Below are positions 41,689 through 46,360 of a stretch of 64,000 bases of DNA, piece by piece. The stretch spans positions 1,984,001-2,048,000 of the forward strand of contig NZ_CP043329.1 of the NCBI RefSeq assembly GCF_008195825.1, read 5' to 3'. Each line of letters begins with the position of its first letter. Position 1 is the first letter of the stretch. Source of the stretch: Pedobacter aquae (GTDB lineage: Bacteria > Bacteroidota > Bacteroidia > Sphingobacteriales > Sphingobacteriaceae). The notes below the pieces were generated by a model, which was not told the origin of the DNA, ran no database searches, and was given only the letters and a program-made list of their open reading frames with translations. The position numbers and the translations under genes were made by a program.

Positions 41689-41763
41689 AGTTTATGGGTT
41701 GTTAATTTGTTTAGTATAGATTGTTACGTAAAGATAGCATTTACGGTTTTAATTTTTCAAATT

Positions 41764-44700
41764 CTAAACTACAATATTAACAATTCTTCCTTTTACTACA
41801 ATCACCTTTTTGGGGGATTTACCTTCTAAATATTTCTGAACAGCTTCGTTTGCTAAAACTTCCTTTTCTATATCTGCCGCTTCCATACTTAAAGGGAAGC
41901 TTAAATTAGTTCTGGTTTTACCGTTAACAGAAATAGGATAGTTAAAATCATTTTCCACCAAATACTCTGGGTTAAATTTAGGGAAGTTTGCATAAGAAAT
42001 TGTTCCTGCGGCATTTCCTAATAAAGCCCAAAGCTCTTCTGTAACATGTGGTGCATAAGGGTGCAACAGCAAAACTAAATCTTGAAGGATAGCTCTTTTG
42101 TTACATTTTAAATCTGTTAACTCGTTAACCGCAATCATGAAACTAGAAACCGATGTATTGAAAGAAAAACGCTCTATATCTTCTTCTACCTTTTTGATGA
42201 TTTTATGTAAAGCTTTTAACTCGGCTTTTGTTGGTGCTTCATCAGCAACTACAAAATTGAAGGCTTCATCATGAAACAGTTTCCAAAACTTTCTTAAAAA
42301 CTTAAACACACCTTCTATACCATTGGTATTCCATGGTTTACTTTGCTCTAGAGGACCTAAGAACATTTCGTACATACGTAGAGTGTCTGCTCCGTAACGT
42401 TCGGTTAAATCATCGGGGTTAACCACGTTGAATTTGGATTTAGACATTTTTTCTACTTCAGCTCCGCAGATGTATTTAGCCTCACCCCTGCCCTCTCCAA
42501 AGGAGAGGGAGTTGGTTCCATCCTCGAAAATAAAGACAGCATCTTTATATTCAGGTCTGGATGCTCTAAATTTTTCTGTATCTAGGATATCGTTGTTTAC
42601 GATATTGACATCGACATGTAAAGCAGAAGTTTTTGTATAATCTATATCAAAAGTAATTTCAAAATCATCTGAATCTAACCTATTTTTTATTTGTGATAAC
42701 ATTAAACTTTTAATACTATCATTCTCAAAAGAAGATAAACTACCTTTTAAACCTTTTTCGTAAAGACCTTTAGATAGAAGAATTATAGGAAAAGGTAACT
42801 TCGACTCATTATAAAAGTCTACATCATTATCTTCTAAATTTTTAATCTTTAGCTTATAATTTTTTAATTGAATCCTATAAACAAAATTAGACCTTCCCTG
42901 AATCATCCCTTGATTAATCAATTTTTTGAAAGGTTCTTCTTCTGTTACATAGCCTAAATCTTTTAAGAATTTATTCCAAAAACGGCTATATAATAAGTGT
43001 CCTGTAGCATGCTCAGAACCACCTATGTATAAATCAACATCTTTCCAATAAGCTATTTTATCTTTATCAGCGAAAGCGTTTTCATTTTTTGCATCCATAT
43101 AACGGTACCAATACCAACTACTACCTGCCCAACCTGGCATGGTACTTAATTCATACTCGTACTCGTCTTTATATTTCCAGTCTTTTGCTCTTCCTAGCGG
43201 TGGTTCGCCAGATTCTGTAGGTAAGTATTTATCAACTTCTGGCAGCATTAATGGTAACTCGCTTTCGTCTATTAAGTATGGCAAGCCATTTTTAAAATAC
43301 ACGGGAACAGGTTCTCCCCAATAACGTTGGCGACCAAAAATAGCATCACGCATACGGTAATTTATTTTTGCGTAACCCATACCTTCTTGCTCTAAAAATG
43401 CAATTACTTTGGCTGTTGCCTCTTTATAGTTTAAGCCGTTGATAAATCCTGAATTAACATACCGTCCTTCTTTAGTTGGATCGGCCTCGTTTTCCATTTG
43501 CTGTGCATCTAAGATTTGGATGATTGGCAAATTGTACTGCTGTGCAAATAAATAATCACGCTGGTCTCCGGAAGGAACAGCCATAACCGCACCTGTACCA
43601 TAACCTGCTAACACGTAATCAGCTATCCAAATTGGCACTCTGGCACCATCAACCGGGTTGATAGCATAAGCTCCTGTAAAAGCTCCTGAAACCGTTTTAG
43701 TATCGGCCATACGATCTAATTCTGATTTCTTTTTGGTTTGAGCAATGTAAGCTTCAATTTCTGCTTTTTGTGCAGCTGTAGTAATTTGCGCTACCAATTC
43801 ATGCTCTGGTGCTAATACTAAAAATGAAACCCCGAAAATGGTATCTACACGGGTTGTGAAAACTTCAACATGGGCCTCACCCCCCGCCCTCTCCGAAGGA
43901 GAGGGAGCTGCCAGTCCTGCGGATAAACGCTCGGATTGTATCGTTTGATTTGTTGTAAATTCTTTTTGCTGGGATAAATGCTCTAGCTTTTCTTTTATAA
44001 CAGAAACTACTTTTTCTGTTTGATTGATTGCTTCTTCGTTGGTAAAGCGGATAACTTCAAAACCTGCTTGATTTAAGAAATGAGTTCTTATTTTATCATA
44101 TTCTGCTGCATCAATATCCTGGTGATAACCTCCGTCAACTTCGATAACAAGTTTTTGTGACAGACATGCAAAATCAGCAATATATCCTTCAATTACATGC
44201 TGCCTTCTTATTTTAAAACCTATTTGACTATTACGTAAACTCTGCCAAAGAACAAATTCCGCATCTGTTTGATTCTTGCGATTAATTTTAGAATTCTCTT
44301 TCAATAAATTCCAAGCAAAAGAATTAGCCGTTTCATATCCGAATGATAGGTTCTCCTGCGCTCCCTTCTCCTTTGGAGAAGGGTTGGGGATGAGGCTAAA
44401 TTTCACCATCGCTCCTACACTCTTCCCTATCCAGTTGCGCTGCATTTCTTTTAGCGGTTCTGGCCAATCTATAACATTTAAGCCTTGAAGCAATCTTTCA
44501 GCGTAAGCGGTAATACGCATACTCCATTGCATCATTTTCTTTTGCTCTACAGGATGCCCGCCACGTTCTGAAAAACCATCTTTAACTTCGTCATTAGCTA
44601 ATACGGTACCTAAAGCGGGGCACCAATTAACAGTACTTTCTTTTAAAAAAGTTAAACGGTATTTTAATAGCTCTGCTTGTTTCTCTTCTTCAGAAAAAGC

Positions 44701-45267
44701 AGCCCAGTCTGTTGGTAAAAGTTTTTGCGTATCATCATCAGAAACAGCATTTAGATTTGCTGTTCCTTGTGTTTCTAAATGATGGATTAAAGTAGAAATA
44801 TGCTCTGCTTTGTCAGAAGATTTATTATACCATGCATTAAACAATTGCATAAAAATCCACTGTGTCCATTTATAATAGTCTGGCGAGCTGGTACGCACTT
44901 CTTTACTCCAATCAAAAGAAAAGCCTAGATTATCTAATTGCTCACGATATCTTTTAATGTTAGCCTCTGTGGTAATTGCCGGATGTTGCCCCGTTTGTAT
45001 GGCATATTGTTCTGCTGGTAAACCAAAAGAATCATAACCCATAGGGTGCAAAACGTTAAAGCCTTTTAACCTTTTATAACGAGCAAAAATATCAGAAGCT
45101 ATATAACCCAGCGGATGCCCAACATGTAAACCAGCACCAGAAGGATAAGGAAACATATCTAACACATAATATTTGGGTTTAGTGGTATCGGTTTCTACTT
45201 TATAAGTTTGGTTTTGAGCCCAGAAATTTTGCCACTTAGTTTCTATACTTTTAAATTGATAATCCAT
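41764..45267 (-). CDS. leuS: Leucyl-tRNA synthetase with in-frame DUF559 nuclease insertion
   Basis: 1167 residues; typical Bacteroidota LeuRS has about 930. Charges tRNA-Leu. HIGH motif as HVGH (48-51), editing (CP1) domain with [13 protein letters not shown] after the insertion, and KMSKS at 940-944; catalytic parts look intact. Residues 291-466 (44397-43870) are foreign: a palindrome-encoded NPSPKEKG, then a DUF559 domain, then a second palindrome ([12 protein letters not shown]). Residues about 796-850 and 917-930 are further extra pieces, the latter ([11 protein letters not shown]) a third palindrome copy. The frame is open throughout. Divergent from ftsX. Confidence 0.93.
42479..42520. 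repeat. ~40-bp palindromic element, copy C (in leuS)
   Basis: GCCTCACCCCTG then CCCTCTCC-AAA-GGAGAGGG (42491-42509). Same orientation as copy B. Encodes [11 protein letters not shown] in the leuS frame just before [14 protein letters not shown], so it is a tolerated in-frame insertion. Confidence 0.85.
43871..43912. repeat. ~40-bp palindromic element, copy B (cassette 3' edge)
   Basis: GGGCCTCACCCCCC then CCCTCTCC-GAA-GGAGAGGG (43887-43905). Inverted relative to copy A. Confidence 0.85.
44356..44397. repeat. ~40-bp palindromic element, copy A (cassette 5' edge)
   Basis: CCCTTCTCC-TTT-GGAGAAGGG (44363-44383) followed by TTGGGGATGAGGC. On the minus strand it begins GCCTCATCCCCAACC, matching copies B and C. 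Confidence 0.85.
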
Positions 45268-45481
45268 TTCGCAATTCTTTATTTGTGCGAAAATAAAAAA
45301 TTAATGTATAGGCTTTAGGGTTTTATTTATTTTAAGATGCTGAGCTTATAAAATATCAAGACATAAAAACGTTATTTAAATATTTTAAAAGCCAAAAAAT
45401 GTTAAATTCTATAGTTTACAAGCAATCATGCTTATTTTAGACTAAGGTTTCTTATTTTCGCAGAAATAATCGTCAGTTTTT

Positions 45482-46360
45482 ATGGAAGAATTTGAAGATA
45501 GCAGAGCATCAAAAAAAACCAAAACCATTTATATCTCAACCGTTATAAGCATTTCTTTAGTGTTATTGATGGTTGGTTTACTAGGTTTAATTCTGGTACA
45601 TGGTAAAAATTTATCAAACTATGTTAAAGAAAACATTGTACTTAACCTGGTGATTAATGAGGGTACAAAAGAGGTTGATATTTTGGCTTTGCAAAAACAG
45701 GTAGAGGCTAACGGTTATGTAAAATCTACACAATACATTAGTAAAGAGCTAGCTGCAAGAAACTTAACTCAAGATTTAGGTGAAGATTTTATTAAGTTTT
45801 TGGGCTATAATCCTTTACTTTCTTCTATTGATGTTTATTTAAAAGCAGAATATGCTAACAACCAAAGCATTGAAATTTTAAGTAAACAGCTTCAAAAGAA
45901 CCCCATGATTAATGAGGTGCGGTATCAAAAATCTTTAGTGGATATGATTAATCAAAACATCAGGACTATATCTTTAGTAATTTTTGGATTTGGTGCTGTG
46001 CTTTTAATCATTGCTATTGCTTTAATTAATAATACCATAAGATTGGCCATTTACTCGCAACGTTTCTTAATAAAAAGTATGCAATTAGTAGGTGCTACAA
46101 GAAGTTTTATTAGAAAGCCTTTCTTAGTATATGGCTTTTTACATGGCTTAATTGCTGGTTTAATTGCTATTATTTTATTGGTGCTAACTTTATATTTTGC
46201 ACAACAGCAAATTCCAGAATTGGTAATTTTAAGAAACTACTATGAGTTTGCAATTGTATTTATAGCTGTAATTGGTGTAGGCATATTTATCTCATGCTTA
46301 AGCACTTACTTTGCGGTTACAAAATACTTGAAATTAAAAATTTACGATTTATACAGATAA
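45482..46360 (+). CDS. ftsX: Cell division protein FtsX
   Basis: 292 residues, membrane partner of the ATPase FtsE; regulates peptidoglycan hydrolases during division. One N-terminal helix (ISTVISISLVLLMVGLLGLIL), a periplasmic loop (~45-165), then three helices; SMQLVGATRSFIRKPFLVYG is the conserved cytoplasmic segment. First of the ftsX-DUF3098-uppP-truB-ribF set. ftsE is not in the window. Confidence 0.93.
   Translation: MEEFEDSRASKKTKTIYISTVISISLVLLMVGLLGLILVHGKNLSNYVKENIVLNLVINEGTKEVDILALQKQVEANGYVKSTQYISKELAARNLTQDLGEDFIKFLGYNPLLSSIDVYLKAEYANNQSIEILSKQLQKNPMINEVRYQKSLVDMINQNIRTISLVIFGFGAVLLIIAIALINNTIRLAIYSQRFLIKSMQLVGATRSFIRKPFLVYGFLHGLIAGLIAIILLVLTLYFAQQQIPELVILRNYYEFAIVFIAVIGVGIFISCLSTYFAVTKYLKLKIYDLYR

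Follow-up and report, generated by a model that had tools for sequence, protein, structure and literature searches.

The received view is that a selfish nuclease residing in a gene needs an intron or an intein to spare its host. How, then, does a nuclease domain come to lie, in a single open reading frame, within the leucyl-tRNA synthetase (LeuRS) of Pedobacter aquae? The question is raised by leuS in a 64,000-nucleotide stretch of that genome (contig NZ_CP043329.1, positions 1,984,001 to 2,048,000; hereafter the window), where a DUF559 domain, a predicted Vsr-like nuclease, stands between two inverted palindromic repeats. This combination of domain and repeats (the cassette) recurs in frame in many unrelated proteins of Bacteroidota, and is present in some leuS genes of the genus and absent from others.

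We consider it fairly probable that the cassette is a selfish, non-splicing, protein-embedded nuclease element that spreads in a homing-like manner and occasionally enters new genes; a selfish nuclease seems to live openly in essential enzymes as a tolerated loop. On the wider proposition, that Bacteroidota harbor a phylum-wide class of autonomous mobile elements carried by the host protein itself, in which a nuclease of homing type, equipped with palindromic ends, inserts in frame into disordered loops of essential enzymes, is never spliced and seeds the genome with in-frame palindromic peptides, our judgment is evenly balanced.

The leuS gene and its cassette

The chimeric gene is a single frame encoding 1167 amino acids (Table 1). 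Its HIGH-like motif (H48-H51) and KMSKS motif (residues 940-944) are invariant across the 32 LeuRS compared, and the gene looks single-copy, since other matches to its N-terminal part in the genome are at E 3e-8 or weaker. Pfam places DUF559 (PF04480) at residues 323-428, with LeuRS domains around it (E 7.8e-32; 109.8 bits against a curated cut-off of 20.6; profile positions 4-108 of 109); this is the one DUF559 match in the entire P. aquae genome. The repeats on either side, 37 and 35 nucleotides long, each consist of a foot (GCCTCAyCCC) and a palindrome (CCTTCTCCTTTGGAGAAGG upstream, CCCTCTCCGAAGGAGAGGG downstream), with the feet pointing outward. The palindromes belong to an inverted pair, GCCTCATCCCCAACCCTTCTCCAAAGGAGAAGGGAGC and GCCTCACCCCCCGCCCTCTCCGAAGGAGAGGGAGC, scoring 19.0, against a maximum of 12.0 in 100 shuffles (L001; L numbers denote loci and G numbers compared genomes, G000 being that of the window).

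A first-pass annotation of the window had described a complete DUF559 domain between two oppositely oriented palindromes, with the synthetase frame open on both sides, and all of this is borne out; the extent it gave, 43870-44397 with LeuRS residue 466 as the last, shrinks slightly, to 43874-44396 and residue 465. Its list lacked a third leuS palindrome, at 42491-42509. Since other genomes of the genus have the same cassette, a misassembly is ruled out.

The fold agrees with the Vsr-like assignment made in that annotation. A model of the domain (70 sequences; predicted local distance difference test, pLDDT, 89.6) resembles 3hrl, a DUF559 protein that is uncharacterised (Z 16.0), as well as the homing endonuclease I-Bth0305I (3r3p; Z 12.0, root-mean-square deviation 2.8, 95 aligned) and Vsr (Z 10.5, deviation 2.3, 100 aligned); in sequence, too, 3r3p is picked up by the DUF559 profile (E 1.3e-7). 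Across the 70 domains 13 columns never vary; they include E20, D48, E59, D61, H65 and D74, some of which may correspond to the letters of the EDxHD motif.

DUF559 is probably not produced apart from LeuRS, since the sequence between the cassette start and DUF559 holds no ATG or GTG and offers a single candidate start, a TTG at codon 322. Structure prediction for the whole chimera, envisaged in the first-pass annotation, gave a model that is weak overall (pLDDT 73.8; predicted template modelling score 0.57) but in which DUF559 (approximately residues 316-435) is folded. The repeats and adjoining sequence (residues 295-315 and 436-463) are among its least certain stretches; in this model, the repeat-encoded linkers look like disordered tethers.

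The DUF559 domain presumably stays in mature LeuRS. Removal of the insert, whether through splicing of the protein or the RNA or through ribosome bypass, seems to us barely conceivable: an essential enzyme with an insert of 174 residues does invite the idea, and in G107 the frame encoding LeuRS breaks directly after DUF559, but LeuRS contains no Hint or intein splicing domain (Pfam, E 0.01), Rfam yields no match at gathering score in 41700-45500, the frame is open throughout, the host proteins differ widely, and the G107 assembly is fragmented, with repeats at the break. The lack of a Hint domain around the nuclease speaks against an intein, consistent with the earlier statement that splicing motifs are missing, and the open frame and the Rfam result speak against a group I or group II intron. 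Nor was there any sign of splicing-out of DUF559 inserts from other housekeeping proteins of the phylum. An insertion sequence or transposon would account for inverted repeats, but the sole domain between them is DUF559, with no transposase.

Table 1. Coordinates of leuS, the cassette and its parts within the window
Feature	Position	Strand	Basis
leuS, chimeric leucyl-tRNA synthetase	41764..45267	-	open-frame listing, Pfam, invariant signature motifs
Whole cassette, foot to foot; LeuRS residues 291-465	43874..44396	-	repeats and alignment with relatives
DUF559 (EDxHD/Vsr-like) predicted nuclease domain	43984..44301	-	Pfam, profile and fold comparison
Linker, residues 295-315, largely repeat-encoded, predicted disordered	44323..44385	-	pLDDT <50 in chimera model
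Linker, residues 436-463, end largely repeat-encoded, predicted disordered	43879..43962	-	pLDDT <50 in chimera model
Upstream (N-terminal) inverted repeat: foot GCCTCATCCC and palindrome 44364-44382	44360..44396	-	palindrome scan, inverted-repeat test
Downstream (C-terminal) inverted repeat: foot GCCTCACCCC and palindrome 43887-43905	43874..43908	+	palindrome scan, inverted-repeat test
Solo element in leuS, 39 nucleotides, palindrome 42491-42509	42478..42516	+	palindrome scan, comparison with relatives

Two further features of LeuRS deserve mention. The break in G107 (L093; 293-1777 and 1714-3927) falls in the repeat-rich linker and may reflect an assembly error in a fragmented genome or a split LeuRS. 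A long stretch at approximately residues 798-883 (42619-42876), between FVYR and LHVDVNI, cannot be aligned among near-identical relatives: G000, G018, G084, G101 and G107 all differ, and other genomes have about 25 residues there, making this a hypervariable region within an essential enzyme.

Paired palindromes, DUF559 and their hosts across Bacteroidota

DUF559 was matched in 51 of 101 family genomes and in 222 of 395 Bacteroidota genomes. It is read in frame within LeuRS (at two sites), IleRS, ValRS, MetH, RecG, a B12-dependent mutase, a UvrD-like helicase, HsdR, HsdM, GH31 and others, and is fused N-terminally to HemF, HisF, RNase H, guanylate kinase and an aconitase-family protein. Host names were read from sequence except where Pfam confirms them (HisF from sequence alone); Pfam, which does not separate IleRS, ValRS and LeuRS, finds DUF559 alongside host domains in 17 families that are unrelated, the class I synthetases being taken as one. 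By these matches, the cassette is not peculiar to LeuRS.

The co-occurrence of DUF559 and paired palindromes, which the first-pass annotation had expected beyond the window, extends across the phylum: inverted repeats exceeded every one of 60 shuffles at 89 of 124 loci with embedded DUF559 and at 31 of 42 where it is free-standing (166 of the 170 loci on the tree described below had enough flank). Among long-frame loci, flank pairs beat all 100 shuffles in 37 of 54 and all offset windows of the same locus in 36 of 54 (54 of 55 tested, the flank of L169 being too short), and 25 of 36 further loci also had inverted flank repeats above all shuffles. Palindromes vary between genomes and match within one cassette, and nuclease distance is correlated with palindrome similarity (r -0.37; 0 of 2000 permutations; 110 loci), shared ancestry being included in this figure. 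The feet point inward in some clades (HemF and many free copies).

Palindromes of this kind are also found without the nuclease. The motif CTCCNNNGGAG occurs three times in the window, all within leuS, against 0.19 expected, and none of 100 shuffles reaches three. The genome (one contig, 3.85 Mb) holds 11 palindromes of the strict pattern (reversed-pattern control, 0), two of them intergenic and nine inside open frames, all read in frame: three in LeuRS and one each in MetH, ArgB, ArgC, AspRS, MiaB and a GH43 protein. The solo leuS element encodes a 13-residue insert that is absent from several relatives. The aspS element is confined to G000, with a short native sequence in G097 and G084 and a different insert in G018; the argC, argB and metH elements and a miaB pair are present in G000 and G097 and absent from G084 and G018; the GH43 element, intact in G000 and G097, is degenerate in G084 and G018; and both intergenic elements are present in G000, G097 and G018 but not in G084. 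This comparison suggests that solo elements moved recently. No target site duplication was seen at leuS or aspS, where close relatives gave no perfectly clean empty site.

In miaB (L012), the strict element and a second, looser one flank a spacer of approximately 25-35 residues, in frame and without a nuclease, possibly a non-autonomous pair. Other intergenic repeat families are represented by AAAGTACAGAGTATAAAGTAGAAA-like and TTAGTTGGTTAGTTTGTTAGG-like stretches, which lie upstream of L002 and L011 in the P. aquae genome and have matches at many places in relatives.

Nuclease-free palindromes, solo or paired, in frame in aspS, metH, argB, argC, miaB and elsewhere are what one would expect if the palindromes themselves were mobile, moved by another enzyme such as a Y1 transposase of the RAYT type (REP-associated tyrosine transposase; REP, repetitive extragenic palindromic), and DUF559 had merely been caught between two of them. 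The P. aquae genome does contain five Y1_Tnp genes, and two element-rich genomes, considered below, have no strong DUF559 match. We nevertheless find this passenger model unlikely. The element is absent from all five Y1_Tnp loci (3.2-3.3 kb read at each), which speaks against RAYT mobilisation in this genome; most loci read, whether embedded or free-standing, have paired repeats around DUF559; purifying selection acts on the nuclease (see below); and palindrome type tracks nuclease lineage, the HisF cassettes having CCCCCT-type paired repeats (6 of 7 copies read) despite the 4-10 CTCTCC-type elements in four of the genomes concerned (G034, G054, G082 and G089).

Host identity is strongly clustered on a tree of 170 DUF559 domains (108 columns, many unresolved forks; L136, masked, and L223, with an unnamed host, not labelled): the labels need 51 changes for 19 groups, against a mean of 115.6 when shuffled, with 0 of 200 shuffles as low. 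The RecG, HisF and mutase copies each form one clade, while LeuRS site 1 needs 13 changes, at least two of them forced by starred branches. Since host labels cluster yet switch, this tree indicates long residence of cassettes in one host gene with occasional changes of host, and more than one entry at the same LeuRS point.

One locus filed as viral, L265 (IMGVR_UViG_2894185313_000007), holds a complete ValRS-like gene with a cassette whose inverted repeats are identical at 30 of 30 letters, and a second in-frame repeat insert further on. As it is a ValRS-like gene, and the sole one read of 80 viral loci, we make no case for spread by phage.

The leuS site across the genus

Alignment of relatives, where both occupied and empty sites had been anticipated, bears on how the cassette reached leuS. 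Among 18 genomes of the genus, DUF559 is present at the LeuRS site in nine (G000, G097, G065, G101, G075, G091, G104, G106 and G107), absent in eight (G018, G084, G102, G103, G105, G040, G109 and G054) and undecidable in one (G108, whose contig stops within the left foot). The site is nearly empty in G105, G102 and G103; at the same point, short inserts of unrelated sequence are found in G018, G084, G040, G109 and G054. Since the same loop holds such inserts in relatives, the comparison suggests that the cassette owes its position in part to loop tolerance rather than targeting; purely site-specific homing as the cause of this position is weakened.

These short inserts are diverse in themselves. 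That of G018 and G084 (L083 and L084; approximately 22-26 residues, ERPTSEVGSQDSSDLRLRTSDL) is an imperfect inverted repeat, and G040, G109 and G054 have further kinds.

The cassettes are not of one type either. Those of G104, G106 and G107 have a different palindrome (CCCCCTTCGGGGG-like), and their nucleases group with Flavobacteriaceae-type copies (support 86 and 90, not starred); the DUF559 lineage of the window forms its own group (support 94). The sister genomes G105 and G106 (support 100/100) differ in the cassette, which G106 has and G105 lacks. On a leuS tree of 14 of the 18 genomes (G104, G107, G108 and G109 left out), cassette presence needs five changes, and strictly vertical descent, the alternative named in the first-pass annotation, therefore fails.

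Within the cassette, G000 and G097 differ silently at 11 of 164 codons; for the leuS sequence flanking it on either side the count is 147 of 557 (p 7e-9). Yet the leuS backbone of G000 is closer to those of G018 (95.2% identity) and G084 (95.0%), both without the cassette, than to that of G097 (90.7%), and forcing G000 and G097 together on the leuS tree costs 14.9 log units (approximately unbiased test, p 0.0105). Because the cassette is so much less diverged at silent sites than its flanks, these sequences suggest that it entered laterally. A plain recombination tract would also explain the low divergence if its edges coincided with those of the cassette. An inert cassette, swapped between relatives by homologous recombination at a tolerant loop with no drive of its own, would fit a gene that is recombinant in the genus and a loop that accepts unrelated short inserts; we regard this as distinctly unlikely, given that low silent divergence is confined to the cassette and extends into neither flank, that the same arrangement is found in many unrelated genes, and that the catalytic residues are kept.

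The ratio of non-synonymous to synonymous substitution rates (dN/dS) for DUF559 within the genus is 0.04-0.12 (6 of 15 pairs, the other nine being saturated), close to the 0.02-0.09 of LeuRS itself. Judged by these ratios, the nuclease, though only a guest, is maintained by purifying selection. Such selection, together with the single clades of the RecG, HisF and mutase host groups, would also be expected of a domesticated domain serving its hosts through nucleic-acid binding or regulation, or as an anti-phage nuclease protected within an essential gene. This appears highly improbable for a domain that is patchy inside one genus, whose hosts have no pathway in common and whose flanking repeats are found alone elsewhere.

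A proposed mechanism and its relation to known systems

A selfish cassette would work as follows. A Vsr/EDxHD-type domain, read in frame between two inverted REP-like repeats without the usual start or stop, would cut or nick an allele that lacks the cassette, or else a hairpin into which the repeats fold; repair of the break would copy the cassette in, leading to lateral spread between relatives, and the cassette would at times land in another gene. A copy would persist wherever it keeps the reading frame open and sits in a loop that can accommodate a tethered domain, and a location inside an essential gene would shield the cassette from deletion. Solo palindromes and nuclease-free pairs would be by-products or non-autonomous copies. 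From comparison between genomes we infer that the cassette is mobile, and likewise the cutting, the copying, the jumping and the role of the palindromes.

Several points weigh against this explanation. In the closest relatives, G018 and G084, the LeuRS site is not empty and holds another insert at the same point, and the junctions between occupied and empty sites are not clean, a few codons differing. The pair put to the approximately unbiased test, G000 and G097, was picked after the cassette was known. Loci were picked by long frame or by similarity to embedded domains (30 loci read, another 55 selected largely for long frames, and the best 80 of 580 named loci, these 80 all having titles that name Bacteroidota), and because these samples are biased towards embedded copies we claim no frequency. 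Paired repeats exceed shuffles in 1 of 11 RecG copies (and 2 of 5 in HsdR), which with the single RecG clade is as long vertical residence would give.

Carriage of elements points both ways. At least three elements (of two types) are found in 24 of the 101 family genomes, and a strong DUF559 match (E below 1e-20; 37 of the 101 genomes, counts transcribed by hand) in 22 of these 24, against 15 of the other 77 (p 2e-10, uncorrected for phylogeny and counting the cassette's own repeats). In genus g21, however, a strong DUF559 match is missing from G067 (10 elements) and G098 (7 elements), and the four DUF559 genomes have fewer than three elements; carriage, though strongly associated overall, is contradicted there as proof that the elements depend on DUF559.

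If the explanation is correct, many odd inserts in Bacteroidota proteins would be accounted for, and the cassettes would provide a natural catalogue of insertion-tolerant loops in essential enzymes, useful for protein engineering, as well as a new source of compact nucleases. Annotators should be warned that DUF559 'fusions' may be parasites rather than functional domains.

Inteins with homing endonucleases likewise embed a nuclease in the frame of an essential protein, occupy few sites and are patchily distributed; the cassette differs in having no splicing domain (Pfam), so that the insert presumably stays. The EDxHD homing endonucleases share the fold of the catalytic domain, a detectable sequence relation and a lateral signal at a fixed site. 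As far as the accessible text of PMC3943268 goes, these enzymes (I-Bth0305I, PDB 3r3p) belong to phage introns and have extra DNA-binding modules, whereas here there is no intron and a core of 115 residues stands alone between the repeats. That a DUF559 protein can act on DNA in the cell is indicated by Caulobacter VsrA, a Vsr-like endonuclease reported to be responsible for the SOS response in cells without a methyltransferase (PMC12907096, in its accessible part, where neither embedding nor palindromes are described).

REPtrons and REPINs offer another parallel, in that footed palindromic repeats stand in inverted pairs around the gene for a DNA-cutting enzyme and solo copies are dispersed; according to the accessible text of PMC3733652, that enzyme, RAYT, is a Y1 HUH transposase and the REP foot is GTAG or CGTC. 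Here the enzyme is Vsr-like, the cassette contains no Y1 domain, the foot is CCTCAyCC and many copies lie in frame in genes. Vsr-like homing nucleases, REP-like palindromes and in-frame palindromic elements are each known, but we did not find their combination in print: among the open-access papers searched, none that mentions DUF559 has an embedded, palindrome-flanked nuclease in its title or abstract, and an untrimmed nuclease with its own palindromic ends in essential proteins has no open-access description that we found, the Rickettsia precedent aside.

That precedent, the Rickettsia palindromic elements (RPE; Ogata et al. 2000, 2002), consists of short palindromic elements of approximately 150 bp (review, PMC10969869, accessible part) in frame in unrelated housekeeping proteins, retained in the product and patchy among relatives. 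In-frame palindromes in unrelated genes are likewise found here (9 of 11), in another phylum and at a length of about 32-39 nucleotides, in inverted pairs around a nuclease domain; the accessible part of the review does not mention a nuclease for RPE, and leaves open how the Rickettsia elements move. If our explanation holds, it would supply an enzyme for in-frame palindromic elements; on the wider proposition of a phylum-wide class, the cassette would be the missing autonomous partner of RPE-like, protein-coding palindromes.
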